From Streptomyces celluloflavus (GTDB lineage: Bacteria; Actinomycetota; Actinomycetes; Streptomycetales; Streptomycetaceae), in contig JOEL01000009.1 of NCBI GenBank assembly GCA_000720995.1, positions 124,001-188,000 of the forward strand: a stretch of 64,000 nt of DNA, in the 5' to 3' direction. Both the position numbers and the translations under genes were made by a program. Shown in pieces: positions 35,783 to 55,236 of the stretch (positions within the stretch are counted from its first letter, which is position 1; the number at the start of each line of letters is the position of its first letter). The notes under the pieces are model-generated. The model saw nothing but the letters and a program-made list of their open reading frames with translations, did no database searches and was not told the origin of the DNA.

Positions 35783-37842
35783 TCACCCCCGCAGCCGCTC
35801 CGCCAGCTCCTCCGGGTCCGTCGTCGGCCGGTCGCAGGTGAAGTTACGGCAGACGTACGCGGCCGGCCGTCCGTCGACCAGCGGGCGGTCCTGGAGCAGC
35901 ACCACCTCGCGGGCGTCGTCGGACCCCGGCGCGCCGAGCGCGACGACCGCCCCCGGGGCGGTGCCGAGCAGCGCGGCGCGGTGCAGGGCCCGGGTGGCCG
36001 GGTCGTCCGGGGGGCCGACGACCGCGACCTCGCGCGGCCCGTCGAGTGCGGCCTCGGCGACCGCGAGCCCCCATCCGATGAAGCGCGGGGCCCGCCCGCC
36101 GAGCGCCGTGACGACCCCCAGGGCGCGTTCCGCGGCGTCCCGGTGGAGGGCGCTGCCGGTCAGCGCCGCGTACGAGAGCAGCGCCCCGGCGGCGGCCGTC
36201 CAGCCGGAGGGCGTGGCGTTGTCGGTCGGGTCCTGGGGGCGGCGGATCAGCGGCTCCGCGTCGGCGGCGGTGTCGTAGAGCGAACCGTCCTCGGCGCTGA
36301 ACTGGACCAGCACGGTGTCCAGGAAGAAGCCCGCGAACTCCGCCCAGACCCCCTCCCCCGTGACCGAGCCCAGCGTCAGGAGGCCCTCGGCGACGTTCGC
36401 GTAATCCTCCAGGACACCGGAGTTGGCCCCGGCCACGCCGTCGCGCGAGGTGCGGTGCAACCGGGCCTGCCAGTCCATGTGGACGCGGATCAGGAGGTCG
36501 GCGGCGTCGGTGGCGGCCTGGATCAGGTCGGGGCGGTCGAAGTACGCACCGGTCTCGGCGAGCGCGGCGACGGCCAGCCCGTTCCAGGAGGCGACGATCT
36601 TGTCGTCCCGTGCGGGACGCGGCCGCCGCGCACGGGCCGCGAGCAGCCGCCGCGTGACGGAGACGACCCGCTCGGCGTCCACCAGACCCTCCGTGTCCGG
36701 GAGCTGGAGGACCGAGGCGCCCTCCTCGAACGTGCCCTCGGGGGTCACCCCGAAGTACCCCGCGGCGAACTCGGCATCCTCCGCACCGAGCACCGCCCGC
36801 AGCTGCTCGGGCGTCCACACGTAGTACGCGCCCTCGGTGTGCGCGCCCGTACCGTCGTCGCTGTCCGCATCGAGCGCAGAGGCGAAGCCGCCCTGTTCCG
36901 TACGGAGCTCGCGCACCATGAAGTCGGCGGTCTCGACGGCGATCCGGCGGGCCAGATCCGAGCCGGTGGCCCGCCACAGGTGCGCGTAGGTCCGGCAGAG
37001 GAGAGCGTTGTCGTAGAGCATTTTCTCGAAGTGGGGCACGGTCCAGGTGGCGTCCACCGCATAGCGCGCGAAACCGCCGCCGAGCTGGTCGTAGATACCG
37101 CCGCGGGCCATCGCCGCACAGGTCGCCTGCACCATCTCCAGCGCCGCCGCCGAACCGGTGCGCGCGTGGTGGCGGAGCAGGAACTCCAGCACCATGGACG
37201 GCGGGAACTTGGGCGCACCGCCGAATCCGCCGTGCACCGCGTCGAACTCCCGGGTCAGGCCCATCAGCGCCGTATGCAGCTCCTCCGGGCCCGGCGGCCG
37301 CCGGTCCGGTGACAACGCCCCGGACATCGAGCGCCCCGCCAGATCGGCGGCGATCCGCCCGGCGACCTCACCGACCTCCTCGCGGCGGTCGGCCCAGGCA
37401 CTCCGCACACCCTCCAGAACCTGCGGGAAGGACGGCATGCCATGACGCGGCGCGGGCGGGAAGTACGTGCCGAAGTAGAAGGGCTCGGCGTCGGGCGTGA
37501 GAAAAACCGTCATGGGCCAGCCGCCCTGCCCGGTGGCGGCCTGGACGGCCTCCATATAGACGGCGTCGACATCCGGCCGCTCCTCCCGGTCGACCTTCAC
37601 GGCCACGAAGTGGTCGTTGAGCAGCGCGGCGGTGCCGGGGTCCTCGAAACTTTCGTGGGCCATGACGTGGCACCAGTGGTCAGCGGACCTAAGTGGCACG
37701 ACGAATATCCCACCGAGAGAAGGATGGGTACGTCGCGCCGCTTGGCCTCTTGCATCGCCTCCTCTCCCCATGGCCACCAGTCCACAGGATTGGAGGCGTG
37801 CTGGAGGAGATAGGGCGACTGGGATTTTGCCAGTCGGTTCAT
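35783..37842 (-). pseudogene. DUF255 thioredoxin-domain protein gene, interrupted at CxxC
   Basis: A gene for a roughly 680-residue DUF255/YyaL-type protein: an N-terminal thioredoxin-like domain followed by a long alpha/alpha-barrel (VDREERPDVDAVYMEAVQAA, YDNALLCRTYAHLW, NATPSGWTAAAGALLSYA). It starts [16 protein letters not shown] at 37842. A 17-base insertion at 37680-37696 falls between the two Cys codons of SSCHWCH, flanked by AGTGG repeats, and shifts the frame, so the N-terminal 49 codons and the rest are in different frames. The N-terminal part differs in style from the native relic at 51.5 kb, suggesting it was imported. Confidence 0.85.
37680..37696. repeat. 17-base insertion/footprint in DUF255 CxxC codons
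   Basis: Removing these 17 bases restores an intact [14 protein letters not shown] reading frame. The insertion is bounded by a 5-base direct repeat AGTGG, leaving 12 extra bases. This looks like a transposon excision footprint or a recombination scar. Confidence 0.7.
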
Positions 37843-37866
37843 ACCTCCATCGTTGCACGACGAGGA

Positions 37867-37894
37867 TCGTGCACGCGTGATCACGCGTGCACGA
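37867..37894. repeat. 28-base perfect palindrome
   Basis: Two perfect 14-base arms with no spacer (37867-37880 and 37881-37894), centred on TGATCA and rich in GTGCAC, lie 25 bases upstream of the DUF255 start at the left boundary of the island. It could be an operator, a terminator or a recombinase-binding site. The region 37895-38344 beyond it has no credible gene. Confidence 0.7.
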
Positions 37895-38344
37895 AGCACG
37901 GCCGCCACAGACCGCCCTGCGGGCGGGCCGCCTCACTTCGGTGATTGTGACCTGGTTGACGCGAGGTCAGTGGGCCCCGCCGGAGCCGCTACACCGGCTC
38001 TCAAGCGCTCTCGGCGCCCTCGCACGTCCCAGCAGCTGGCTGGCTCGCTGATGCCGGAAGGCGCTCTCCCTCCTCCTGCGCAACGACCGCAGGATGGCGG
38101 ATCGCATCGAACCATCCCGGTACGTCGGAACTCCTGTCCTTGTCTCCGCACTCACTGTCGTCGAAGCAGCACAGGGGAATGACGGACCTGGCACGATTAC
38201 GATGGGCCCTCTCCCGACTGCGGGTGGAATCGGTCAGCCCGGAGGACTCGATGGTCCGGGTTCCGGCCCCGTGGTCGTCCTGATCTCCGACCGCGACGAC
38301 TGGTCGAAGCTCTGCGGAAGCCATGTGATCATCGCAGGGCGGGT

Positions 38345-38451
38345 AGCGCGCCGCTCCGCCTCGCCGAACGCCACCTGTTTCCAAGGCTGACAGTCAACCC
38401 GGTTGTCGGCGTGCTGAAGTAGACAGGGCGAGGTCACACCAGCCGACTCAT
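38345..38451 (-). pseudogene. DUF255 5'-end relic (second copy)
   Basis: From an ATG at 38451 the sequence reads MSRL, then after a frameshift TSPCLLQHADNRVDCQPW and VAFGEAERRA, a decayed version of the DUF255 N-terminus ([18 protein letters not shown]). Similarity ends near codon 40, short of the CxxC. It lies just before the STAND NTPase gene and has no downstream coding part. Confidence 0.75.
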
Positions 38452-38536
38452 GCGCCCCGGACTCTCACAGCGCCCGATCCGTTCGAGGAAGCCCGCATAG
38501 GCTCCGTCGAAGCAAGCGCCCCGAGACGACCGAGCC

Positions 38537-41500
38537 TCAGGGCTCTCCCCCCTCAAGTCGACGTGCCTCCATCAGCGGATGCTTCCGTAGGACGGTCATG
38601 TCCCTCGCCATGGCGCCCAGATACCCCAGCGCCCCAGGGGCGAGTGAGGGGAGCAGCGGGATCGTGCGAGTCCACGCGTCGGATCGCAAGAGCTCCAGCA
38701 CGATGTCCCGGGCCGTCTCCTCAGCGGGAGGACTGCCGTGGTCGGCGGCTCGGGCCAGTGCCAGGCAGGTCCGGATCACCCGGTCGTGGGCACCGCTGTC
38801 TGCGGCCGGCGCCACCTGGGTGCCCGCCAGGTGCGTGGCGGCGGTACCAAGCGCCGTCGCCCGGCCGTCCGGCGTCCGCGCCGCGTCGGCGTGCCGCAAC
38901 ACAGCGGCGGTGTCGCCGTTCACCGCTGCCAGGAGTGCCAGTTCCGCAGGGGGCTGCGGTCCCGAGTGACGGGCGCGCCGCCATCTGCCGACCGAACTTT
39001 CGACGGCGCTCACGGCTTCGTCCGGAAGGCAACGGAGCCGTTCCAGCAGGGCAAGGACGGCCATCGACCATGCCGGCGCCGCCATGGAGGGCGCAGCCAC
39101 GCGGTGCGCAGCCCGGCCAAGCACGTCGCTCAGCCGGGGGGCTGGGTTCCGGACATCCGGGAAGGCAAGAAGCAGCGCCGCCAGCTCGGGGAGAGGAACA
39201 TGTGGGCTACCCGTCCCCATCCGCCGTGCGAGGACCTCCACCAGCGGCTCGGCGACGCGTGCCGCCGCCTCCGGGCAGTGTCGTACGAGCCCGGCGGCGA
39301 CGGCCGTCAGCGCCTGCAGCCGTTGCGCGGTATCTCCCGTTGCCATCGCCGTGGCCGCGGCCTCGTCCCCGGCATGGGCGAGAGCCTGGGCCACGGCGTT
39401 AGCCAGATCGGGGGCGGTTCCGGCGAGTACCAGCCTGGCCGCCGCTCGGGCGTAGCGGGTGCCCGGATCATCGTGTCCGGCGAGGGAACAACCGAGGGAG
39501 AAAGCCGCCAGGTGCCGCGCGCGGGCATGTGTGTCAGGCAGGTGCTGCACGAGTGCTTCGGCCTCGTCCGATGCGCCTGCCGCGCCCATGGCCTGGCAGA
39601 GTTCTACAGTCCAGCCTTCGGGGAGATACGAGGAGCTTGCGGGCTGTGCTGCAGGGCGGCTTCGCAGGGCCGCCTCCAGAAGTTCCCGGGCGCGGAGGAG
39701 ATGACCCGCGCTCACCTGGTCGTCCGCCTCTAGAAGCAGGGGAAGAAGAGGCTGCTCCGGGCGATCGGGGTACGGGCCGTCGCCGGGGCGCAGCAGGCCG
39801 GTCGATCGCCGGTGCGGGTTAGGGCGGCGGGGCGGGGAGGAAGACCGTGTGTCCTCGGGTTCTGTCTGTGTGGGCTGTGGCGTCTGGGTGACTTGTGCAC
39901 TGTGGGCCATCCGCGCCTTTCTCAACACCGCCCGTTCGGCATCATCTTTCCTGCGCTTTGCCTTGCGCTCCATCTCGCTCTTCTCGGCAGCCGCCTGCGC
40001 TGTCTTGTCGGCCCGTCGCGCCCTCTCGATCTCAGCTGCATCAAGGATCGATTGCGCCCGTTCCAGCAGGGGGTCACCGAGCATCCCGACGCGATGGTCT
40101 TCCGGTACTGCCTCCATCTGATGCCTGATGCCGTCAGGGTCGCCCATCGCCTCCATGGCCACTGTGGCCATGGCCAGGCGCTCCAGTGTCCCAGCGAGTT
40201 CGCGTCGCAGGTGGGCGCGATCAGCTTCGGACAAGGCATCGGACGGGGAATCGGAGTCCCTCAGCGCCTCGATCGCCTGATGCATCCGGGCTCGGGCCTT
40301 CCGCAGCTGTTCGGCGGCCCGGCGGTGTCGCTTGGCGGGCAGAGCGACGAGCACAGACGCCGCGGTGGCCAGGACGTCGACCGATCTCAGTCCTTCCGTG
40401 TCGCCGAGCTCCTCGCAGACGGCCTCGATGCGATTACCGGCGTAGCGGCCGAGGTAGGGCGCTACCTGCGCCAACGCGCCGTAGAGTTCCACTGCCGCGG
40501 TCCGGGCGCGCAGGTCACCCGCGCTGAGCGTCTCCGCCCGGGAGTACAGCGTCATGACGGCATCCAGTTTCCCCGCCGCCTCGGTGATCGCTGCTGTCCC
40601 AGCCGCTGGGCCCTGGAGCACTGCGCGGAATATGGGCCGGGCGGCGCCGGGACCGTTCAGACGGGCGAGCGTCCCGGCGGCGCAGAGGAGTCGTACGTAC
40701 GGCTCGGGGTCTCGGAAGGCACCGGTATAACCCTGATGCGCACGGTCCCGGGCCAGCCACTCCGCTGTCTCCCGCACGAGGGCATCGGCATTCAGGTTGG
40801 CCCGTCCCACGGAGGGCTGTCCCGCGTACGCCAGTTCCACCGCCATGTCCGCCAGGTGTACGGCCCTGTCGACGGCCGTGGGCGCGGAGCGGGCCAAGCC
40901 ACGTGCGCGCTCGGCATCCCCGAGCCTGACGTAAAGAGCCGGGGCTCCGTCGGGCACGTACGTGTCGTGCGCCCGGCGCAGCAGGGACCGCGCACCGTAT
41001 AGGGAGGTGAGTGTCGCCAGACGGTCGGCGTCGGATGTGATGTCCGCCGTCGCACTGATCTCCCTCTCGAAGGAGTCCAGCTGGGCGAGCGGGATGTCCG
41101 GCCCGACTGTGCGGGCGAGCTGACGCAGACGGAGCAAGTCGAGGATGTACGCCGCGCGTTCGGCGGTACCGGTCAGCAGGCGGAGCTGATGTCTCAAAGG
41201 GTACGGAGGAGTGTCGTCCGGCCATCCGGCCGCGTGCCACCTCCGCGACCAGATCAGCAGTTCCTCGGTGTACCGCAGGACCGTGGCCTCTCCCAAGTCC
41301 TCGCGCACCGCGCGCACGAGGTGAGAGTCCGCCAAGGCATACGTCCCGAGCAGTGGATCCTCGGTCACGAGGGCGCGCCCCGCCGGGCCCTGCACCAAGC
41401 GGTCAAGATGGTCTGCGGAGAGCCCGGTCAGCTCCGCCAGATCCGTGGTCCGTAGGCCGCCGTCCGCCACAGCCAGCAGCGCCGCGACCGGTTCGCCCAG

Positions 41501-42571
41501 CGCAGCGGCGTCGGGTGGTGGCTGCCGGCGCTTCGGTACCCCGACGATGGGCAGGAGCGTTCGCAGATGACGGCTCTGACGCAGCGGATGCCGCTTCTCG
41601 GAAACGTCGCGGGGAAGGGGGGCACAGCGCCGGAGAGAGACGATGACGCGCATATTGGGCGGGGGGAGGGAGGGCAGAAGCGCGGCGATGCTCTTGCTCG
41701 CTGGTCTCCGTACGACTCGGGCCGGGCTCTCGGGTTTGCCCCCGAAGTGGGCCCTGGGCTTCGGAGTCCCGCCCTTGCCTGCCAGGCCCGGCCCGGACAC
41801 GTGGCCCGACCAGGCCACATCGTCGTCAAGTCCGTCGACCACGAGCAGAAGGTTCCGTCCGCACCTCGCGCTCTTGGCGGCCGCTTCGGCGAAGAGGGCG
41901 TTCCACGCCCGGGCACCCTTTGGGACCGGGCTCCCTGACCTGCCGAGAAAACGGTCGATCTGGCCGGCGATCTCGTTCTCGAACTCGGCTCGCGTGTCCG
42001 TGCCATGGGCCGCTGAGACGAAGAAGGTCAGGATGTCGCTACCGATGGGGGGTTTCTGACGGACGTAACCGGCGAGCAGCGTCGTCTTGCCCACGGGGCC
42101 GTCGGCGTGCCAGCACAGGTAGGACGGTGCCCCGGGACGGGATTCCTGGACAAACACCTTCATCTCCGTACGTTCGTTCGCCCGCGCGCGGATCTCGGTC
42201 ACGGAAACCTCGGGGGCCGAACCGTGCAACCCGATGAAGCGAAGGCCGGGGTCCGCCTGCCGCCGGTTCACAGAGATCTGCTCGTGCTGCGCGCCTCTTG
42301 CCTCCTCCTTCGCGGCCCGCAAGGTGGCTTCCCACTCGGCGTCCGAGTACGTCGGGGTGCTGTGCGCGCTCTGCGACCTGGCCACTACGGCCAAGAAGTC
42401 ACGCACTCGATCCGGCGAGGGGACCGTCTTCCCCCCGATCCAGCTCTGCAGCGTCGAGCGAGGGACATCCAACTCCTTGGCCACGCCGTCATAAGTGAGC
42501 CTCTCGGAGTTCCACGTCTCCTGCAGCATTCTGTGCAGCTTGTTCCTCGCACGTCTGGCTGAACCCTTCAC
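38537..42571 (-). CDS. Large STAND-type NTPase with N-terminal HTH
   Basis: A 1344-residue protein. Residues about 12-60 form a helix-turn-helix (LTYDGVAKELDVPRSTLQSW). The NTPase core has Walker A GPVGKTTLL at 158-166 and Walker B LLLVVDGLDDD at 241-251, then an Arg-rich sensor-like region and a winged-helix-like segment. Residues about 420-1330 are Ala/Leu-rich helical repeats, broken by a charged coiled coil at about 845-885. This is the STAND layout: sensor repeats that switch an NTPase. The GTG at 42571 has GGGAG upstream. It is divergent from the Cascade genes. No known effector domain is visible. Confidence 0.8.
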   Translation of the reverse strand: MKGSARRARNKLHRMLQETWNSERLTYDGVAKELDVPRSTLQSWIGGKTVPSPDRVRDFLAVVARSQSAHSTPTYSDAEWEATLRAAKEEARGAQHEQISVNRRQADPGLRFIGLHGSAPEVSVTEIRARANERTEMKVFVQESRPGAPSYLCWHADGPVGKTTLLAGYVRQKPPIGSDILTFFVSAAHGTDTRAEFENEIAGQIDRFLGRSGSPVPKGARAWNALFAEAAAKSARCGRNLLLVVDGLDDDVAWSGHVSGPGLAGKGGTPKPRAHFGGKPESPARVVRRPASKSIAALLPSLPPPNMRVIVSLRRCAPLPRDVSEKRHPLRQSRHLRTLLPIVGVPKRRQPPPDAAALGEPVAALLAVADGGLRTTDLAELTGLSADHLDRLVQGPAGRALVTEDPLLGTYALADSHLVRAVREDLGEATVLRYTEELLIWSRRWHAAGWPDDTPPYPLRHQLRLLTGTAERAAYILDLLRLRQLARTVGPDIPLAQLDSFEREISATADITSDADRLATLTSLYGARSLLRRAHDTYVPDGAPALYVRLGDAERARGLARSAPTAVDRAVHLADMAVELAYAGQPSVGRANLNADALVRETAEWLARDRAHQGYTGAFRDPEPYVRLLCAAGTLARLNGPGAARPIFRAVLQGPAAGTAAITEAAGKLDAVMTLYSRAETLSAGDLRARTAAVELYGALAQVAPYLGRYAGNRIEAVCEELGDTEGLRSVDVLATAASVLVALPAKRHRRAAEQLRKARARMHQAIEALRDSDSPSDALSEADRAHLRRELAGTLERLAMATVAMEAMGDPDGIRHQMEAVPEDHRVGMLGDPLLERAQSILDAAEIERARRADKTAQAAAEKSEMERKAKRRKDDAERAVLRKARMAHSAQVTQTPQPTQTEPEDTRSSSPPRRPNPHRRSTGLLRPGDGPYPDRPEQPLLPLLLEADDQVSAGHLLRARELLEAALRSRPAAQPASSSYLPEGWTVELCQAMGAAGASDEAEALVQHLPDTHARARHLAAFSLGCSLAGHDDPGTRYARAAARLVLAGTAPDLANAVAQALAHAGDEAAATAMATGDTAQRLQALTAVAAGLVRHCPEAAARVAEPLVEVLARRMGTGSPHVPLPELAALLLAFPDVRNPAPRLSDVLGRAAHRVAAPSMAAPAWSMAVLALLERLRCLPDEAVSAVESSVGRWRRARHSGPQPPAELALLAAVNGDTAAVLRHADAARTPDGRATALGTAATHLAGTQVAPAADSGAHDRVIRTCLALARAADHGSPPAEETARDIVLELLRSDAWTRTIPLLPSLAPGALGYLGAMARDMTVLRKHPLMEARRLEGGEP

Positions 42572-42753
42572 CAGCCCGCTCCCGTCCGTGTTCGCTGCGC
42601 GGAAAACTCGGCCTCCGTTGTACGACCTCAGGCGCTTGACCTGCGGAAACCGTGGCGCAATGGTCGGCGCAACTTCACGGCACAAGGCCGCCGCCGTCAG
42701 TCTGGAGCCCTCACCACAGCAGCCGAAACCAGCTCCCGCCAGAAGGATGGCCC

Positions 42754-42930
42754 ATGTCCCAGCTCCCCCAACTTCTGCCTTACACCCTGCTGTTGAGTGG
42801 GATTGCCGGCCTACTCTATGCGGTCGCCCTGCTCACCGTTGCCCTCGTATCCGTCCTCGCCTCCGCACAGGATCGCCGCAAGGACGCGCGGACGACGCTC
42901 AGCATCCTTGTGCGTCGACGACCGCGTTGA
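42754..42930 (+). CDS. Small single-pass membrane protein
   Basis: A 58-residue ORF, MSQLPQLLPYTLLLSGIAGL then LYAVALLTVALVSVLA, with one or two hydrophobic helices (about 8-38) and a basic Arg/Lys-rich C-terminus ending RRRPR. AGAAGGA precedes the ATG by a few bases. It is divergent from the STAND gene and in the same direction as the Cascade genes. I recall similar small proteins in Streptomyces, but not their function. It might be the membrane-active partner of the STAND protein; that is speculation. Confidence 0.55.
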   Translation: MSQLPQLLPYTLLLSGIAGLLYAVALLTVALVSVLASAQDRRKDARTTLSILVRRRPR

Positions 42931-43161
42931 GCGCGGGGAAGGCATCCGATGCCGCACGCACCGACCGCACCGGCGCTTGTCGCGGGCCTTGATCAAGCGA
43001 ATCGAGTGCACGGCCTTGCACTGGAACTCGGGGGCCTGTAGTGCGCTTGATGGGTGTGTGACATTCGCTACCGAAGCATCGATGTCTTGAAATCTGCCCT
43101 CAAGAGCGGGCGTTGCTGTAGAACATTCCTGTGTTGCCACCCGCTCAAGCCGCAGCGTTGC

Positions 43162-43189
43162 CTGCAGCTCTGCGGTCGCAGAGCTGCAG
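43162..43189. promoter_or_regulatory. 13-bp inverted repeat before a small ORF
   Basis: Two perfect 13-base arms (43162-43174 and 43177-43189) with a two-base spacer lie 22 bases upstream of the 37-codon ORF, close to its ribosome site. It may be an operator or an attenuating hairpin. Confidence 0.45.
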
Positions 43190-43211
43190 ACCCCGAAGCG
43201 GAAGGAGTGGC

Positions 43212-43325
43212 ATGGGAAAAGCAGCACGTAAGTGGCTGGGGCGCCGCAGGGAGGAGCTGTTCCTCATCCTGGTGGCCGGAGTGGTCAGCGCAGTAATGGC
43301 CAAGGTGGTCGACTACCTCTGGTAA
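43212..43325 (+). CDS. 37-residue membrane peptide
   Basis: A tiny ORF, MGKAARKWLGRRREELFLIL followed by VAGVVSAVMAKVVDYLW. A basic N-terminus is followed by one membrane helix (about 16-33). GGAAGGAG, a near-perfect ribosome site, lies five bases upstream, which is the main reason to believe it. A hairpin follows directly. Size and shape resemble type I toxin-like or membrane-depolarising peptides, but no family is recognised. It lies between the STAND gene and the Cascade operon. Confidence 0.5.
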   Translation: MGKAARKWLGRRREELFLILVAGVVSAVMAKVVDYLW

Positions 43326-43329
43326 ATGA

Positions 43330-43362
43330 CCGTTCTCGACGCAACCTAGGCGTCGAGAACGG
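43330..43362. terminator. Hairpin terminator
   Basis: A 13-bp perfect inverted repeat (43330-43342 against 43350-43362) with a 7-base loop starts five bases after the stop of the 37-codon ORF. Confidence 0.7.
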
Positions 43363-43378
43363 CCGACCCCAGCAGTGA

Positions 43379-43414
43379 GTGGTTCCCGTTCCGCGCTCAC
43401 GGGACGGGAACCAC
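43379..43414. repeat. Second hairpin upstream of Cascade genes
   Basis: An 11-bp inverted repeat (43379-43389 against 43404-43414) follows the terminator by 16 bases. It may act as a second terminator insulating the Cascade operon. The gap 43415-43755 holds the operon leader and two repeat-like hairpins described separately. Confidence 0.5.
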
Positions 43415-43554
43415 GCGCATCCCGCCGGTCTCCCGGTGGGGTACTGCCAGGGGTGCCGAGACATCGGCAATCCCTGATTTTAGACCTTTACGTAGGTGCC
43501 ATCGGGCCGAGTGATCGAGTACTTGAACCAACAAGGACCATCAAGGCCGGCGAA

Positions 43555-43640
43555 GCGCTTCCCGCTCACTGCGGGAGTGGCCCGTCGGGAGCCTGCAGAG
43601 CCCTGGAATGGGCTCTTCCCCGCGTGGGCGGGGGCGTCCC
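43555..43640 (+). repeat. Two CRISPR-repeat-like hairpins upstream of cas8e
   Basis: Two 29-base stretches, 43555-43583 and 43612-43640, share the pattern CTTCCC(C)GC, short loop, GCGGG(G), then CCC. This is the stem arrangement of type I-E repeats (TTCCCCGC...GCGGGGAT). They are 28 bases apart, slightly short of the usual 32-33-base spacer, and they differ from each other. They may be decayed CRISPR repeats or coincidental GC hairpins. Confidence 0.25.
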
Positions 43641-43755
43641 GCACTTCCGGTCTCCACGGACCGACCGGAGTACGACTCGATGCGGGGACACCGCCCTCGT
43701 CGGAGCCACCACCTGTTGGTTTTCAGGCGATTGAACAGAAGGAGGTGGCACGGAC

Positions 43756-45380
43756 TTGCCCGAGGCCCGACCGCCGATTCCCGCCGGACAGCGCGCCAGC
43801 TGGGATCCTCGCTTCCAGCCGTGTATCCCCGCCGTCGACCTCGACGGTGCGACCGCGCACCACTCCCTGAGCTCGCTTCTCACCCGGGCCGACGAACTGG
43901 CCGCCCTCGACTGCACCTCGCCGGGCGAGACCGTCGCCATCATCGAGTACTTGCTGGCCATCTGCTTCGCCTCCGGCACCTGTCCGTCCTCCGACGAGGA
44001 CTGGAACGCCTGGATCCTTGGCCAAAGGCCCCTCGCGCCGGCCGCCGAGTGGCTGTTGAAGCAACCGGCGGGCTCCTGGGACTTGTTCCATCCCACGAAT
44101 CCCCTGGCACAGAATTCCGACCTGTCGGAGGATCTCCGCAAGAGCGGCACCGGAACCGCTCAGCTGATCATCGAGCACTCCGGTGACTACAACCAGCACT
44201 TCGACCACCATCATCTCGAACGCGACAACCCTCTCCCGGCAGCGGACGCTTTCCGCGCCACCCTCACACAACACGTCTACGGCCCTTATGGACGGGCACG
44301 CATGTCCGGGGGCGAGCTCGGCGCCAGGGTCACCAATCTCGCGGCGGGCCGTCTGACGGGTCGGATCCGGGTCGTCGCCCTGGGAGGAACGCTCGGCGAG
44401 ACGCTGCGCCTGAACCTCTATCCGCCCGACGGGCCGGGGAAGCCACTCAACACCTCCTGGACCACGTCCGTCTTCGAGCAGCGCAGGTTCGAAGAGAAAC
44501 GGAAGCCCCGGGCACCACGGAGCTCGGCGGATCTGCACAGCGCCCTGGGACGTTCCGTACTGCTGCGTCCAGTACGCGGTCCACACGGGCAGCTTATGGT
44601 CGACCGGGTTCTGATCGGAGCCGGTGAGGTACTGGATCTCGACCCGGCGCGTCATCTTCAGGACGCCGTGTACAGCACGACGACAAACGGTGTGTCCAAG
44701 CCCCTGTGGCCCTCGCCCAGCCGAGCCCTCTGGCAACAGGCCCATGCTCTGTACGGCGCCGTCAACGAGGGCCAGGGCGGGATGTACGCGCGGCTGCGGT
44801 CCCTTCTCCCGTACCGGCGACCAGAGCCGGAGGGGCCGGGCCCGGAAACGCAGCAGGGTGCCCCGTACCATCTCTGGGCTGTCGGCCTTCTGACCAACAA
44901 GACGCTCCCCGTCATCTGGACCCACGGCGCCTACCCCTACGCCCCGGGCATGGCCGCACATCTCTACCGCGCGTCCCACCGCGGCTCGGACATTGCCGAA
45001 TACATAGCGCGGACTCTCAAGAACGCGGCGATCGTAGCCGCGGAGACCGCGTTCCCCGCCATGAAGACCGCGGACGAGGCCGGTCAGGTGGCACGTCTCG
45101 ATGCCCGGTACGACTTCTGGCCCGCAGCCGAGGACCCGTTTCACAAACTGCTGGACGAGGTGATCGACCGGGGGCTCGAGGACGACGACCCGGTGTCCGC
45201 TCCCTTGGTCGCCTACGCACTGAAGTTGATGATCACGGCTCGCACCCGGTTGCTCCAGCTCCTCGACACCCTGCCGCCCGGCGACCGCTATAACCGAGCG
45301 CGGACTCGGGCCGTGCGACTTTTCGAGGAGGCCGTGTCCGGCGACCGAGCCCCGGCCGAACTCCGAGGGGGAGACAGCAC

Positions 45381-45384
<4 letters not shown>
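43756..45384 (+). CDS. cas8e: Cas8e (Cse1), type I-E Cascade large subunit
   Basis: A 542-residue Cse1 protein. WDPRFQPCIPAVDLDG and the following SLSSLLTRADELAAL match the conserved N-terminus, and WDLFHPTNPLAQNSDL is the family block near residue 115. The helical C-terminal bundle ends with PLVAYALKLMITARTRLLQLL. Cas8e recognises the PAM and normally recruits Cas3. The TTG start is supported by GAAGGAGGT about ten bases upstream. It overlaps cse2 by four bases. There is no cas3 next to it, which is unusual because cas3 normally precedes cas8e. Confidence 0.85.
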
Positions 45385-48979
<3,595 letters not shown>

Positions 48980-49098
48980 ACCGCTCAACAGCCGACCAGA
49001 GACGAACTCTCTCGCGGATGCCGCCGCCAGCGTTCGGCGCCGACGGCAGGGCTCTCCACATACGAGCGGTCTGGACGCAGTACTCGGGAAAAGCCACC

Positions 49099-49129
49099 GC
49101 GTGCCTGTCTCCCCGCCGTCCAGGCACGC
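49099..49129. terminator. Hairpin after Cascade operon
   Basis: A 9-bp inverted repeat (49099-49107 against 49121-49129) with a 13-base loop lies 120 bases after cas6e and may end the Cascade transcript. It is next to the third DUF255 relic. Confidence 0.45.
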
Positions 49130-49139
49130 TTTGCGTCCC

Positions 49140-49289
49140 GAGCAGCACCGGCACGCCCCGCTCCCGCGCCTCGGTGAACGCCTCCGGGCTCCAGGACCAC
49201 CAGTCGACGGGGTTGTCGGCGTGCTGCTGGAGGCAAGGCGAGGCCGCGTCGGCGTCGCAGCCCTTGCACCCGTGCCCGGCCAGGGACAC
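49140..49289 (-). pseudogene. DUF255 5'-end relic (third copy)
   Basis: The minus strand reads SPCLQQHADNPVDWWSWSPE then AFTEARERGVPVLL, a clear DUF255 N-terminus, with the preceding residues altered (MSLAGHGCKGCDADA). Similarity ends abruptly after VPVLLG, just before where the VGYSSCHWC codons should be. There is no 3' part. It separates the Cascade operon from the DUF2075 gene. Confidence 0.85.
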
Positions 49290-49326
49290 GTGGATTGAAT
49301 GAAAAAACGATTCTGCTAGGTTCCAG

Positions 49327-51312
49327 ATGAATCGGCTCGGGAGAGCTTCATTCGCTGGGGGGGTAGACGGGATGGCGGTCGGGAGCGGTTGGAAGCCGCT
49401 GGAGGCGTTCTGGTCCGTGCAGCGTCTGGTACGGGACCGCCATCAGTTGGTCCGGCAGATCAGCGAGTGCTACACCGCCGCGCACCCGAAGGACAAGAAG
49501 CCGAGTCCCTCCGAGGTCAGGGCCTGGCGTGAAAGCGTCTACGAGCTGGCGACCACACTGGACAACCTCGGGCTCGGCCAGGTGCGGATGTTCATCGAGT
49601 ACCTCGCCGACGGCCAGATGAACCACATCGACGTGGTACTCGCCGGCCGGCATCCATCGGGACGGCTCAGCTACGCGGTCATCGAGCTCAAGCAGTGGGG
49701 CAGTATCGAGCGTCCGACCGTGTCGAAGACGGCCGGGCTCTGTGCCTCCTGCAGGACGGCGGGAAACAGCACGCTCTGCCAGCGCTGTGCCAGGGATCTG
49801 GTCTATGCGCCGTTCTCTGAATATGAGAGGCACGTCAAGCATCCTGCGGTCCAAGTCGGCAACAACATGGACGACCTGCGCAGGCACCACAGCATGTTCG
49901 ACGACCGCTACGTCAACGTCGTGGGCGCGGCCTACCTGCACAACCTGATGGATCCGGAGCAGCAGTGGATCAGCCAGGTGTCCCCTCGCCCCGGGATCCC
50001 CACGTTCACCGCGCGGCAGCCAGGGGACCTGGAGAAGTTCCTGACCGCGAACTTCAGCTCGGACTCCGGCGCGGAGGCCGCACAGGAGTTGCTCGGGCGT
50101 CGACGCTCGAGCAACCTTCTGACCGACGAGACCGGGGCGATCGTCAACGGGCACACCCGGTTCAGTCTCGTCGAACACCAACTGCGGGCGGTCCGGGCGA
50201 TCGCCGACGCCACCGCAGCCGTCGGGTCGCCGGGAGTGAAGAAGGTATTCGTCATCGAGGGACGTGCGGGCAGCGGCAAGTCGCTCGTCGCACTCACCGC
50301 TCTGGGAGACGCGCTGCAAGCCGGGCGTTCTGCTGCCTTCGTTTCCGGCGGCGTCGCCTCCCGTGACACCTTCAAGCGGGCCGCCAAGGGGCACCAGAAG
50401 GTCTTCAGGCCGCTGGTGCAGGTCGCCGACAAGTTCGGTCCCGACGAACTGGACCTGATCGTCTGCGACGAAGCCCACCGCCTCAGCGAGCGACCTATGA
50501 CCGGCTCCTTCAGCATGCGGTCGACGGGACCGAGCTCGGTGGAGGTGGTCGTCACCCGCGCTCGCGTGCCGGTCTTCTTCATGGACGGCGATCAACGTCT
50601 CTTCGCGGAGGAGGTCTGGTCTCCGATGAGGCTCAAGAGCGAGCTCTGGAGCCTCGGCGTGGAGATCGTGCCGATCACCCTGGACCGGGTACTCCGAACC
50701 GTCGGCAGCTCGACCTACGACACCTGGGTCAGTCGGCTCATGGCCGGGGACCCCATCGCGTGGCGCCCGGACGGCGCCACCGATCCCGAACCATTCGAGC
50801 TCTACTACGCTGACAGTGCCGCCGAGATGGAGTCCTTCCTCCAGAGCAGGGACCCGGCGGGCGTGAGCGCCCGGATGAGCGCCGGAATGTGTTGGGGCTG
50901 GACCGACGACACCGGCACCTTCCCCGACGTCAGCCCCGATCCCGAGTGGGCACGCCCCTGGAACGCCGGCGACAGCCACAGCACCCAGGGAATACCCAAA
51001 CGGAAGTTCTGGGCGACCGACCCCGGAGGCTTCGGGCAGATCGGGTGCGTGCACACGGCCCAGGGGCTCGAGTACGAGTGGGGCGGTGTGATCATGGGCC
51101 CCGACCTCACGTGGGAGGACGGCGCCTGGGTCACCCACCGCGAGCACGTGAAGAGCAAGGCCTCACGCATTGAGGACGACACCGAACTCACCCGGGCGTT
51201 GTGCAGGGCCTACGGCGTGCTCATGACCCGTTCCATCCGCTGCCTGGTGCTCTACTCAGTCGACGCTGCCGCCAGGAAGCTCTTCGCCGACCTCGGGGTG
51301 CGGAAACTCTGA
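49327..51312 (+). CDS. Nuclease - zinc ribbon - DUF2075 helicase
   Basis: A 661-residue protein. An N-terminal PD-(D/E)xK-like nuclease core shows Asp102 (MNHIDVVL), Glu120 and Lys122 (AVIELKQW). A zinc ribbon follows with cysteines 139, 142, 151 and 154. A DUF2075/Schlafen-like SF1 helicase occupies about 275-660: Walker A GRAGSGKS at 312-319, Walker B CDEAHRL at 380-386, and a late [16 protein letters not shown] motif. An ATG at 49372 with a G-rich site upstream is an alternative start. Its architecture is typical of anti-phage nuclease-helicases. It lies between two DUF255 relics. Confidence 0.85.
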
Positions 51313-51313
51313 T

Positions 51314-51339
51314 CCGCCCGTCCCCTACTTGCCGGGCGG
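51314..51339. terminator. Hairpin terminator
   Basis: A 7-bp inverted repeat (51314-51320 against 51333-51339) with a 12-base loop overlaps the end of the DUF2075 gene region, immediately after its stop. Confidence 0.55.
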
Positions 51340-51428
51340 GTGGCTCGCCATGGGTCCTCGGCTCGGGCCGGGTGGTGCCGGCAATGTCCCGCCGGACCCA
51401 CCACTCTGTTGACGAGTTCACTGCCCCC

Positions 51429-51581
51429 CCTGCAAGCCCTGCACCCCCCGCTGAACAGCACCGGTACGCCGCCTCGCCGGGCTTCTTCGAATGCCGCGGT
51501 GGACCACGGCCACCATTCGACCGGGTTGTCGGCGTGCTGGAGCAGATACGGGGAAGTCTCATGAGCCAGGTGGTTCGGCAT
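51429..51581 (-). pseudogene. DUF255 5'-end relic, probably the native end
   Basis: From the ATG at 51581 it reads [20 protein letters not shown] then [16 protein letters not shown] and GVPVLFS, a near-perfect Streptomyces DUF255 N-terminus. After VLFS the sequence becomes GGCRACRGG, a degraded echo of VGYSSCHWC, and similarity ends. The rest of the gene is 14 kb away at 35.8-37.7 kb. The frame then continues without meaning to about 51252. It is divergent from the STAND-TPR gene, probably the original gene order. Confidence 0.88.
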
Positions 51582-51957: not shown

Positions 51958-54900
51958 ATGCCGGGCTCACTGGCTGAGCTGCGCGACAGTCACCGGACCG
52001 AAGCGGAAGGGCTGTTGACGCGGGCCGTCGAGGAAGAGGTGCGGCGTTCGGACGGCCGGCTCGACCGGGGCACGCTGCTCGGCAGAGCGCGGGCGGCGCT
52101 GCCGGACCTGGCGGGCACGGCGGCCGAGGAGTACACCGCGTATGTCCGGGCGCTGGACGAGGCGGCCGCCGGGCAGCGCCCGCTGACCGAGCGGCTGTCC
52201 CGCAAGGAGCTGGGCACCCCGGCGGTGGCGACGGCCGTGGCGGCGGTGGCGGCCTTCGGCACGAACCTCGCGAACGGCGCGGGCGGGGGCCCGGCGCTGG
52301 CCGTGGGGGTCGCCGCGGCGGTGGCGGGCGGCGCGGCCACGGTCGTGAAGCTGACCGCCGGTCACTGGCCCGCGGCCCACCGGCAGGCGGGGATGCGGGG
52401 CCAGCCGGGCGGCCCGGAGCAGCTGCGCCTGCAGTGGCTGACGGCGCTGGAGGTACGCGGCATCCGGCCGTTCCTGGACCAGCAGCGGATGCTGGCGGCG
52501 GCGACCCGCCGTAGCGGTACTCCGGCCAAACCGGCCGCCTCGAAGAGCGGCCGGGGACCGCAGTTGCGCGGTACGGACCGTAGCGCGGCGGCCCGGCAGC
52601 GGTCCCTGCTGGATCACTCGTTCTCCCATCTGCCGCGCGCGGACGGGCCGTTCGCGGGCCGGCGGGCGCAGCTGACGCAGATCGCCCAGTGGGTGCAGGC
52701 GGCCCGCGCGAGCACGGAGACGAAGCCCACGGTGGTGGTGCTGCACGGCGCGCCGGGCTCGGGGCGCACCACGCTCGCGGTGCGGGCGACGCACCAGCTG
52801 CGTGATCAGTTCCGCGGTGCGTGTGTGGTGGATCTGCACGGTGACACCCCCGGCGAGGTGCCGCTGCCCACCCGGGAGGCGCTGCTGCATCTGCTCAACC
52901 GGCTGGGCGCGCCGCGCGAGCAACTGCTGTTCCGTGAGCGGCCTTCCCATGAGCAGCACGTCAAACGGCTGTCGGAGCTGTATCAGCAGCATCTGACGGG
53001 CCTCGCGGTGACGGTCCTGCTGGACGACGCCTCGGATCCCGAGCAGGTGCGTGCGCTGGTCCCGGACCGTTCCGACAGCCTGGTGCTGGTCACCTCGCGC
53101 GAACCGCTGGAGCTGCCCGCGGACCTCCAGGCGTGGGTGCATCAGCTGCCGGTCGGCGCGCTGGACGCGGCGGGCACCGAGGAGTTGCTGCGGGCGACGG
53201 CCGCGGCGGACGAGTCGGCGGGCGCATCGGGTCCGTACGATTCCCGGGCCGTCGACGAGATCTCCGAGCTGTGTGCCGGGCTGCCGCTGGCGCTGCGGGT
53301 GGCCGGTTCCTCGCTGGGGTCGCGCTCGCCCGCCGTGCTCGCCACCGATCTGGCCGCGTACGGCCCGGTGGCGCCGGTGGAGCGGGCCCTGTGGCTGCGC
53401 TACTCCGACCAGTCGGAGACGGCCCGGCGGCTGTTGCGCCGGCTGGCGCTGGTGGGCCGGGCCAGCCTGGGGGCGGCGGCCGCGGCGGCGCTGCTGGGCG
53501 TCCCGGACCAGGAGGCGGAGCGGCAGCTGACGACGCTGACCGCGGCAGGGCTGGTCGAGAACGTCCGCGGCGAGCGGTACCGCCTGCATGCCCTGGTGCA
53601 CCGTTTCGCGCATGCCCGGCTGATGGACGAGGAGGAGCCGGCGGAGCGCGGCGCGGCCCAGGAGCGGCTGATCCGCGGTTACGCGGAGCTCGCCGACTCG
53701 GTGATCCGCCTGGTCGACGGGCGTACCTCCACCCGCGCCGACCGTTTCGGTTCGCACGGCTTCACCTCGCTGGACGCGGCCCTTCAGTGGCTGGACGACG
53801 AGACCAGTTTCATCACGGCCGCGCTGCGCCACGCCGATCAGGGCGTCGACCAGGAGGCGGTCTCGCATCTGCTGGGCGCACTGGCCGACTACTGCCTGCT
53901 GCGCGGCGATCTCTACCGGCTGGGCGAGCTGAACGAGCTGACCCGGGCCGTCGGCCAGGGGATGCTGGTCCGCTCGGTGCAGTGGCGTACGGGTGTCGCC
54001 GCCCGCCAGCTCGGCGAGCTGGACACGGCGCGTACGACGCTGTCGTCGGTGGTCGATCTGTATTTCGAGGCGCAGCATCCGGTGGGCGCCGCCCGCGCGC
54101 TGCGCGATCTGGGCATCACGCTCCAGCAGCAGGGCCATCTGACGGAGGCGGCGGCGAAGCTGCGTGAGGCGCTGGACATGCAGACCGCGCCCGAGGTGCA
54201 CGGCGACCGGGCCTGGACGCTGCACGCGCTGGCCGCCGTGGAGCGGGACCGGGCGGGCCTCGCCGAGGCGCTGGAGCTGCTGCGCGAGTCGCTGGAGCTG
54301 CATGAGGAGAGCGAGAGTGTGCACGGCCAGGCGTGGGCGCACTTCCAGCTCGGCCAGGTGTATCTGCGGATGGGCGATGTGTCCCGGGCGCAGGACGCGC
54401 TCCAGTCGGCGCTGGAGCTCTACGGCCGGACGCACGACGAGCGCGGCGAAGCCTGGGCGATGACGCAGCTGGCGCGCGCCCGCCTGGTGGACGGCGATCC
54501 GGGGCCCGCCGTCGACCAGTTGCGGCAGGCGCTGCCGCTGCACCACCAGCACGAGGACGCCCGCGGTGAGGCGTGGACGATGTACTACCTCGGCCAGGCG
54601 CTGGAGGAGCGTGGTGAGCACGATGCGGCGCTGCGCCAGCTGGAGCGGTCGCGGACGATGTTCAGCCGGATGCAGGACGGCTACGGTCTGGCGTGCGCCC
54701 GGCACCATTCGGGACGCGTGACCCGTGATCTGCGGGCGGCGCAGACCGGTTCGCTGCGCAACAGCGGCTTCGCCCGGCAGCTGCTCCAGGACGCCCGCAA
54801 GGACTTCCAGCGGATCAAGGTGGCGCACGGCGAGGCGTGGTCGTGCCTGGAGTTGGTGATCATCGACGCGGGCAACGGCCGGGCGGCGCAGGCGCTGGAG

Positions 54901-55236
54901 CTGGCCGACGAGGCGGCGCGGCTGTTCGCCGGCTACGGCGACCGGCGCGGCGAGGACTGGGCGCGTTTCCTGCGCTGCACGCTGCTGCCGTTCGCCTCAC
55001 CCGGCGGTTCGGTGGTGGGTACGGCCGTCGCGCAGGAGGAGCTGGCCCAGCTGGTCCGGGACGGTCATCCCACTCGCGATGCGAAGCTGGAGGACTGCGC
55101 GGAGACGTTCGCGCTGCTCCTGGACCGCGGTGTCGAACCGGAGACCGGCTGGCAGGCGTGGCAGCTCGGCATGGTTCCGAACCGGCACTCGCGTGAGGTG
55201 ATGGGGGTACCGGTGGCGCCCACCGGGGCCGGGTGA
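51958..55236 (+). CDS. STAND NTPase with TPR repeats
   Basis: A 1092-residue signal-transduction NTPase. The N-terminal 130 residues include an Ala/Gly-rich hydrophobic stretch (about 85-125) that could insert in the membrane. The NB-ARC-like NTPase has a Walker A variant GAPGSGRTT at about 263-271, with Arg where Lys is usual, Walker B VTVLLDDASD and the GLPL motif AGLPLALRVAG. The C-terminal half is TPR-like, with repeated GEAWAMxxLARARL-type helices. AAGGGGGA precedes the ATG. It stands next to, but outside, the DUF255-bounded island. Confidence 0.86.
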   Translation: MPGSLAELRDSHRTEAEGLLTRAVEEEVRRSDGRLDRGTLLGRARAALPDLAGTAAEEYTAYVRALDEAAAGQRPLTERLSRKELGTPAVATAVAAVAAFGTNLANGAGGGPALAVGVAAAVAGGAATVVKLTAGHWPAAHRQAGMRGQPGGPEQLRLQWLTALEVRGIRPFLDQQRMLAAATRRSGTPAKPAASKSGRGPQLRGTDRSAAARQRSLLDHSFSHLPRADGPFAGRRAQLTQIAQWVQAARASTETKPTVVVLHGAPGSGRTTLAVRATHQLRDQFRGACVVDLHGDTPGEVPLPTREALLHLLNRLGAPREQLLFRERPSHEQHVKRLSELYQQHLTGLAVTVLLDDASDPEQVRALVPDRSDSLVLVTSREPLELPADLQAWVHQLPVGALDAAGTEELLRATAAADESAGASGPYDSRAVDEISELCAGLPLALRVAGSSLGSRSPAVLATDLAAYGPVAPVERALWLRYSDQSETARRLLRRLALVGRASLGAAAAAALLGVPDQEAERQLTTLTAAGLVENVRGERYRLHALVHRFAHARLMDEEEPAERGAAQERLIRGYAELADSVIRLVDGRTSTRADRFGSHGFTSLDAALQWLDDETSFITAALRHADQGVDQEAVSHLLGALADYCLLRGDLYRLGELNELTRAVGQGMLVRSVQWRTGVAARQLGELDTARTTLSSVVDLYFEAQHPVGAARALRDLGITLQQQGHLTEAAAKLREALDMQTAPEVHGDRAWTLHALAAVERDRAGLAEALELLRESLELHEESESVHGQAWAHFQLGQVYLRMGDVSRAQDALQSALELYGRTHDERGEAWAMTQLARARLVDGDPGPAVDQLRQALPLHHQHEDARGEAWTMYYLGQALEERGEHDAALRQLERSRTMFSRMQDGYGLACARHHSGRVTRDLRAAQTGSLRNSGFARQLLQDARKDFQRIKVAHGEAWSCLELVIIDAGNGRAAQALELADEAARLFAGYGDRRGEDWARFLRCTLLPFASPGGSVVGTAVAQEELAQLVRDGHPTRDAKLEDCAETFALLLDRGVEPETGWQAWQLGMVPNRHSREVMGVPVAPTGAG

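Follow-up and report, generated by a model that had tools for sequence, protein, structure and literature searches.

A DUF255 gene of Streptomyces as a probable attachment site for phage serine integrases and for stacked cassettes without recombinases

Why should the body of one gene be preceded by several copies of its own beginning? The question is raised by a DUF255 gene (Pfam Thioredox_DsbH, PF03190) in Streptomyces celluloflavus, which we examined in a 64,000 nt stretch of DNA, referred to here as the window (assembly GCA_000720995.1, contig JOEL01000009.1, forward-strand positions 124,001–188,000). Between window positions 35783 and 51581 an initial annotation had reported four minus-strand copies of the DUF255 5' end with only a single 3' part, and had proposed the serial integration of elements which each brought a replacement 5' end. 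A homology search of the window bore out these copies at 37842–37693, 38443–38348, 49253–49140 and 51575–51432 (copies 1–4, respectively), close to the coordinates first given, and a search of the whole genome returned seven hits, of which five fall at this locus and the other two, both weak (E 0.05 and 0.4), do not, which shows no further true DUF255 copy outside it. Our reading, to which we give a probability of about 0.78, is that the codons of the DUF255 CHWC motif form the bacterial attachment site (attB) of an actinophage large-serine-integrase family, and that small cassettes lacking a recombinase use the same site, leaving successive layers behind them (G and L numbers below are our working labels for compared genomes and for loci or contigs, respectively).

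Most of the fragments end in much the same place. All four copies had been said to break between VPVLL and the CxxC codons, and as a single coordinate this does not hold in the window, where copies 1 and 4 extend into the CxxC codons (to codons 50 and 49), but homology is lost by codon 42 in copy 3 and already by codon 36 in copy 2, at which point some 80 nt present in relatives are missing. Elsewhere the breaks mostly do coincide: in 22 of 33 Streptomyces fragments the CHWC codons give way to an element end that recurs, C(A/G)GT(G/A)..., for example CACTGGTGCCAG joined to TGAACTCGCGAACCCAGTAGTC (assigned by eye; the 33 fragments are what remained of a 41-row junction table after six scar copies, one duplicate row for G242 and a weak match in G036 were dropped). 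In the window the corresponding element end, CAGTGAACTCGTCAACAGAGTGG (51401–51423, minus strand), adjoins copy 4 and compares with CAGTGAACTCGTCAACCGAGTAG in Streptacidiphilus jeojiense (L143); we read it as an attP-like right half-site (P'), attP being the phage attachment site, and copy 4 (51432–51581, minus strand) as the probable left half-site (B) of an attL-type junction. The coincidence exceeds what chance would give, as a junction pattern with 19 specified bases matched 15 times in 84,980 species genomes. Fourteen matches were in the Streptomycetaceae and all 14 fell on a DUF255 5' fragment (some appear to be the same strains as our G genomes and are not independent of them), and the fifteenth, from a Bacteroidaceae metagenome-assembled genome, was not on a DUF255 fragment. 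The same pattern was found in 13 stretches of viral contigs, none with a DUF255 fragment.

A possible user of the site is found in the viral contig L055, which carries a DUF255 5' end (ending ...GYASCHL) followed by CACTTATGACTTCTATCAATCCACTGG, TG and CCATGTCAAG..., and a divergent gene for a 613-aa serine integrase, with phage-like open reading frames (ORFs; judged by eye) flanking this unit on both sides. In a second viral contig, L056, the same kind of arm is joined to a host DUF255 3' part, and in genome G035 the phage type of 5' end and its arm are joined to a native 3' part with a 573-aa integrase right behind, followed by phage-like ORFs (again by eye). The L055 and G035 integrases are 36% identical, both contain the Pfam Resolvase and Recombinase domains and both adjoin an attP arm, and in G310 an integrase relic lies beside a scar at the position taken by the integrase in G035. 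The initial annotation had seen no integrase, had left the mechanism open, and had suggested looking for recombinases at such junctions; the search succeeded in so far as L055 and G035 revealed a phage serine integrase that uses this site through its attP, while for the cassettes themselves we infer a mover of the same type. The CHWC codons are thus probably the attachment site of a phage large serine integrase, with the sequence CACTGG-TG-CC.

Several other candidates were set aside. MT839133.1, in which the DUF255 match ends with the record, had been considered as an excised circle and was dropped as the rest of it looks by eye like ordinary chromosomal genes; the viral contig L057 holds an intact DUF255 gene; and a group of 501-aa serine integrases (G025:C1:2627263 and G158:C1:2902400) lies 19–30 kb from DUF255, not at this site, and perhaps marks another attachment site nearby. 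A match in a Nocardia plasmid, a decayed DUF255 fragment ending at CHWCHVM, was kept aside.

The arms agree with an attP which has imperfect dyad arms around a 2-bp core. When we compared 10 left and 24 right arms, picked by eye, the phage left arms mirrored the cassette right arms with a mean identity of 0.337 outside the shared hexamer, against 0.257 ± 0.027 after 2000 column shuffles (1/2000 as high). The best pair (G019/G280) reached 71%, arms compared with attB right halves gave 0.197, and the two arms of L055 itself, compared by eye, match at 14 of 27 positions. We presume that the core is the dinucleotide TG between codons W51 and C52 (37671–37672 in the window, minus strand). Here copy 1 (37693–37842, minus strand), which homology and type comparison assign to the phage (P) type, is parted from the 3' part (35783–37675, minus strand; positions 51–162 of the PF03190 profile) by a 17-nt insert which shifts the reading frame (...TCGTGCCAC TTAGGTCCGCTGACCAC TGGTGCCACGTC), and this 17-nt excess belongs to an attP-like left half-site, CACTTAGGTCCGCTGACCACTGG (37673–37695, minus strand). 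Because copy 1 and its counterparts in G019, G170, G296, G313 and G159 share the same phage 5' type and an arm of the L055/G035 kind, we interpret such inserts of 17–21 nt as probable attP-left half-sites (P) and copy 1 as an attR-type junction. The view that the copy joined to the 3' part is foreign is supported by its phage-type 5' end, with the amendment that this is probably an attR-type scar with an attP-left arm and not a cassette end. In G296 the scar adjoins an mca-like gene with no element present, as if left over after prophage loss.

Integration of such a phage, with a crossover in attB at CACTGG-TG-CC, would produce two junctions. At the left one the resident 5' end would meet the attP right arm; at the right one the phage-borne DUF255 5' end and the attP left arm would come to stand on the native 3' part, and the frame would be broken. 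Copy 1 with its 17-nt insert would be a right junction of this kind (P.B').

The replacement of 5' ends can be followed because they fall into types, which we refer to as native-like (N), M (NRLAGVTS...GYSACHW and variants), 'SPEAF..RER', NRLAQATS-like, and phage (P). Copy 4 had been described as native in appearance and is indeed of the native-like type (DNA identity of 0.78 with the native reference, 0.69 with M and 0.64 with the phage type). Copy 3 (49140–49262, minus strand) is a decayed fragment of the 'SPEAFxEARERGVPVLL' type, recognised by homology, whose DNA identity is 86% with the fragment of G062 (over 112 nt), 85% with L139 and 83% with the G107 gene, and copy 2 (38348–38443, minus strand; AGVTSPCLLQHADN) is decayed with its core lost and is slightly closest to the mobile M type (0.73 to M, 0.70 to N and 0.67 to P). 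We infer that the island in the window is a stack of four layers, with copies 4, 3, 2 and 1 successive. In seven genomes the gene is of type M and the upstream fragment is not, with native-like fragments in G202, G249 and G315, a 'SPEAF..RER' fragment in G062, and NRLAQATS-like fragments in G104, G224 and G290. Scored over the 36 diagnostic sites that separate the M and native consensus in codons 2–50, the gene and fragment types of G062, G202, G249 and G315 are clean in all three blocks into which the sites were divided. The GC content at third codon positions (GC3) of the 5' end is 0.86–0.98 in 30 native-like genes and 0.63–0.78 in 18 of 22 M-type genes (the exceptions are G010, G171, G190 and G211); downstream of the 5' end these M-type genes have 0.80–1.00.

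The type signal is largely lost at the proposed core. For 52 intact genes (22 M and 30 others) labelled by type from codons 5–7, the within-minus-between type identity was 0.071 for codons 9–29 and 0.081 for codons 30–50, values not reached in any of 2000 label shuffles, and 0.010, 0.004, 0.005 and 0.016 for codons 52–71, 72–101, 102–150 and 151–200. Upstream, nine M genes from different species (G025, G062, G099, G159, G202, G224, G249, G290 and G315) share some 770–820 nt or more at 83–96% identity, a stretch that holds a divergent Uma2 gene, and the other M genes share just 65–130 nt or so. The combination of M genes with non-M fragments, the loss of type after codon 51 and the common upstream stretch supports the proposal of serial integration with replacement 5' ends, and suggests that many cassettes bring such an end and that the M type is mobile between species up to about codon 51.

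How a cassette might do so can be outlined from its two ends. At one end of these small, recombinase-less cassettes would lie an attP-like right arm, in many cases with a PIN gene or a small ORF next to it; the other end would be the cassette's own DUF255 5' end, which in one family comes after a divergent Uma2 gene. A circular form with a hybrid B.P' junction, acted on in trans by a phage-type integrase, would recombine at the core so that the old 5' end is left upstream as a fragment and the gene gets a new one; gene and attB would then be whole again, and the next element could follow. Of this scheme, the sequences themselves document the types of junction, the breakpoint at codon 51/52, the foreign 5' ends, the phage unit of attP and integrase, and the fact that whole cassettes recur. 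The readable junctions are what such exchanges would give, in that left halves (native, M, other, or phage arm) are combined at the core with right halves (the 3' part or an element arm). G159 has a phage-type fragment with a P.P' junction, in which the core lies between a phage left arm and a right arm, and behind it a whole M-type gene, as would be expected if a B.P' circle met a P.B' phage scar, formally attL x attR. The P.B' scars may be the better partners, because the reaction then equals attL x attR and gives a repaired gene as in G159. A more specific version, to which we give a little less than an even chance, is that these are gene-repair cassettes whose hybrid site (target 5' half plus phage-type arm) allows an insertion, with the integrase supplied in trans, that heals the gene, recreates the site, and delivers cargo and repair in one step.

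A number of observations weigh against this reading, as do the origin of the type labels and the by-eye choice of arms. Eleven of the 33 Streptomyces fragments, including window copies 2 and 3, have no readable arm. The drop in GC3 is not clearly different in genomes with fragments (-0.107 ± 0.150, n = 27) and without them (-0.084 ± 0.066, n = 24), partly because M genes also occur where no fragment was found (G002, G005, G010 and G014). Type structure after codon 52 is weak but not nil, with 15, 68, 32 and 75 of 2000 label shuffles as high for the four successive intervals, and may reflect kinship. The order is reversed in G070, G209 and G311, where the M type lies outside, and in G280, G029 and G025b fragment and gene carry nearly identical 5' ends. 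In G035 the attR-type junction is clear and the left junction is 57 kb away and may belong to another layer or prophage. A search for PF07508 between fragment and gene in 26 genomes found only the G035 prophage (tyrosine recombinases were not searched for as a family), and integrases at least 60% identical to that of G035 were found only in G035 and as the G310 relic among the three best candidates in each of 392 genomes, so that a helper integrase looks rare. A scan of viral contigs with the G035 integrase alone gave no match, and with a two-sequence profile it returned only the contig already known. According to the available part of PMC3783163, serine integrases do not recombine other att pairings, and because of this the pairing of a cassette with a native attB (B.P' x B.B') is not canonical.

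Some of these points would be accommodated by homologous recombination alone, in which DNA with a truncated DUF255 5' end recombines with the resident gene and phages only seeded the first junctions. It would explain the fragment and gene 5' ends which are 97–100% alike in G280, G029 and G025b, the G104, G224 and G290 pairs, which are mixed in one block, and the rarity of the integrase. We nevertheless regard it as unlikely, as crossovers within a 150-nt repeat should give mosaics and not the separate types up to codon 50 seen in G062, G202, G249 and G315, the similarity between the 5' ends of native and M type is only about 75%, and the P.P' junction beside an M gene in G159 needs an exchange at the core.

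DUF255 also contains what looks like a second serine-integrase site. In G022 (L054), G233 (L151/L152) and G293 (L153) the 5' copy is longer and originates from this other site, with the outer DUF255 copy cut at VPHFEK (codon ~268). About 45 nt past the cut begins a gene for a 553-aa serine integrase, followed by regulator-like genes and finally by an entire DUF255 gene, in which the part ahead of VPHFEK does not have the sequence of the outer copy (..LTPRAGGPL.. in G022). The three nearest integrases of the 553-aa clade (94–100%) are all at DUF255. This integrase-bearing element of some 5 kb appears to bring a new DUF255 5' part, as proposed for the cassettes, and the NRLAQATS-like type is also borne by the G022 element, to which the G104 fragment is 91% identical.

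Looking beyond S. celluloflavus, we surveyed 61 relatives and then 295 Streptomyces genomes with the DUF255 N-terminus, which matched in 293/295 and gave at least two matches in 37. Events at this site were found in 31 of the 295 genomes. Twenty-seven have 5' fragments upstream of the gene and on its own strand (decayed or without a readable arm in G171, G194, G282, G311 and G313), and four (G019, G170, G296 and G310) have no fragment but only a scarred gene, split at codon 50–53. An extra fragment in G268 was discounted as a layer since it lies 1.4 Mb from the gene and ends at codon 45, and the second matches in G030 and G158 are unrelated (32–35% identity). Among the 61 relatives, 14 genomes belong to another family of the same order, and in 7 of them the break recurs next to an element end of another kind (G038, G039, G042, G043, G046, G049 and G051); G052, from the same class, has a decayed example. 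The initial annotation had suggested looking for such fragments in other genomes, and had held that finding them as often at unrelated loci would count against its proposal: they recur for DUF255, and the N-terminus of pckG, the single control gene, gave a second match in 0/121 genomes, a set in which DUF255 gave one in 13, at this site in 11. That fragments lie in cis and in one orientation in the 27 genomes might point to tandem duplication and decay of the DUF255 5' end without any mobile element. We find this hardly credible given that none is seen for pckG and that fragment and gene often differ in type, and it is contradicted by the recurrence across genera of element ends and of one whole cassette.

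The cassettes themselves were defined as 37 intervals from a fragment to the next copy, including three from the window (intervals of 57 kb in G035 and 65 kb in G104, the outer one of G209, and those of G282, G313, G171 and G194 were left out). They measure 1.1–10.7 kb, the sole exception being a 0.5-kb relic in the window. Family A cassettes begin on the left with a PIN gene, frequently accompanied by a 96-aa ORF; their right end has Uma2 in several genomes, and the genes in the middle vary. From 107 ORFs called we scanned 81 (those left out were mostly near-duplicates plus a few short ORFs; counts are raw tallies within cassettes). Among the matches listed, the first 25 of 326 and of 56 families, were SAVED/SMODS, type I restriction subunits, AbiJ_NTD3, Cascade genes, the SLFN-group-3 helicase (2), RHS, DUF4143, Uma2 (PF05685; 9/81), PIN (4) and one IS4-type transposase, and a Fic domain was also matched. 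The cassettes often carry defence genes, as the term 'immune modules' in the initial annotation had implied, and the description needs widening as the cargo appears to be a mix of defence, toxin-antitoxin and unrecognised genes. We note that one cassette family has an ORF of ~45–50 aa (..IEAWVAxQxAxSPxWTPEKW..) after its element end (L044 ~19300, L039 ~12100 and L143 3633–3767); it had no Pfam or NCBIfam match above cut-off and could be a directionality factor or an antitoxin.

The Uma2 genes at the right end of M-type cassettes allow a homing mechanism to be considered, in which the nuclease cuts the native site, repair takes place from a cassette donor, and the recoded M 5' end resists further cutting. 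Consistent with this, the Uma2 matches noted above adjoin a DUF255 5' end, and M and native consensus differ at 36 sites of codons 2–50. We consider it very unlikely, given that many cassettes, including those of the window, show no Uma2 and that it leaves the symmetry with the phage arms and the G159 junction unexplained; to our knowledge no homing activity is known for Uma2. Some of the cases could be due to homologous recombination or to homing.

The window's cargo illustrates this range. The outer cassette carries a 661-aa SLFN-group-3 helicase-domain protein (49327–51312, plus strand; domain scan), and this 2.1-kb helicase unit together with its DUF255 fragment recurs with 90% identity over 2286 bp in S. 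jeojiense (L143), while a 57%-identical homologue is the sole gene in the DUF255 cassette of G043. In S. jeojiense (genome G416) DUF255 5' matches are on contigs C3 (twice), C51 and C62, with the intact gene on C16, and the island looks as if moved or broken by rearrangement. Further in, the domain scan identified Cascade genes on the plus strand, namely cse1 (43756–45384), cse2 (45381–45941), a cas7-type gene (45925–47337), cas5 (47334–48233) and a cas6e-type gene (48071–48979), whereas the ORFs that were called and scanned across 43756–48979 included no cas3, cas1 or cas2; Streptomyces corallincola (L137) has Cascade genes behind a DUF255 junction with 43–61% identity to these. The 1382-aa ORF at 38537–42685 (minus strand) had a sub-threshold HTH_23 as its sole match, so that of the STAND-Cascade block and nuclease-helicase first described, the Cascade genes and helicase domain stand and the STAND label was not confirmed. 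Directly after copy 2 is a decayed VapC-like PIN-domain gene (38058–38333, plus strand; 46% identity over 119 aligned positions to L069:4110–4517, E 6e-26), the gene with which family A cassettes begin on the left. The window also has a TPR/NB-ARC protein gene (51958–55236) between mca and copy 4, which may be a further insertion because an mca-like gene lies less than 1 kb from DUF255 in G296 and from a DUF255 fragment in G104.

If the gene-repair version is correct, bacteria would acquire cargo, often defence genes, and at the same time have phage damage mended. The locus would be a natural example of an incoming element that repairs its target, and possibly links phage integrases directly to the growth of defence islands. 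In practical terms there is a searchable rule that goes beyond one island: where a 150-nt gene fragment ends at a known break, a cassette starts, so that defence and toxin-antitoxin cassettes in actinomycete genomes could be delimited with an accuracy of a few bases. A further gain is a serine integrase whose site lies within a widely retained gene.

We found no paper describing DUF255 as such an attachment site in the titles and abstract starts of the open-licence literature, and several known systems resemble parts of what we describe. Cis-mobilisable elements (CIMEs) are recombinase-less units bounded by att junctions which can stack at one site (site-specific accretion). DUF255 cassettes are likewise recombinase-less and stacked at att junctions, but their left junction would be B.P' and their right one a whole B.B' gene and attB rather than attR, in place of the attL and attR flanks of a CIME. 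The staphylococcal cassette chromosome (SCC) at rlmH also involves a serine recombinase site in a conserved gene and stacked cassettes, some without a recombinase; here the target is DUF255 and not rlmH, PF07508 was absent from the cassette intervals of the 26 genomes but for the G035 prophage, and we know of no foreign gene half of the DUF255-cassette kind in SCC composites. The integrases of dusA islands are tyrosine recombinases, and that of phiC31 is a phage large serine integrase. The dusA islands and prophages, as described in the available part of PMC4482086, have their integrase on board, insert in the 5' end of a conserved gene, supply a new 5' end and leave a remnant. DUF255 cassettes resemble them in the last three respects (although the replacement of the 5' end was not seen in G280, G029 and G025b), and differ in their target, in the serine-type integrases, in the site at codon 51, in the occurrence of cassettes without a recombinase, and in having several layers. 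For phage large serine integrases, target sites that lie within conserved protein genes are described in the available part of PMC10083194, in whose main text 'thioredoxin' and 'DUF255' do not occur; the DUF255 site shares with them its place in such a gene, the hybrid junctions and the Resolvase and Recombinase domains, and differs in that a 150-nt stretch of attP duplicates the 5' end of the target. Islands which replace a gene 5' end and serine integrases with sites in protein genes are therefore already known, as far as the available parts of these two sources go, and what looks new here is the stacking of recombinase-less cassettes which would repair the gene at a serine-integrase site.

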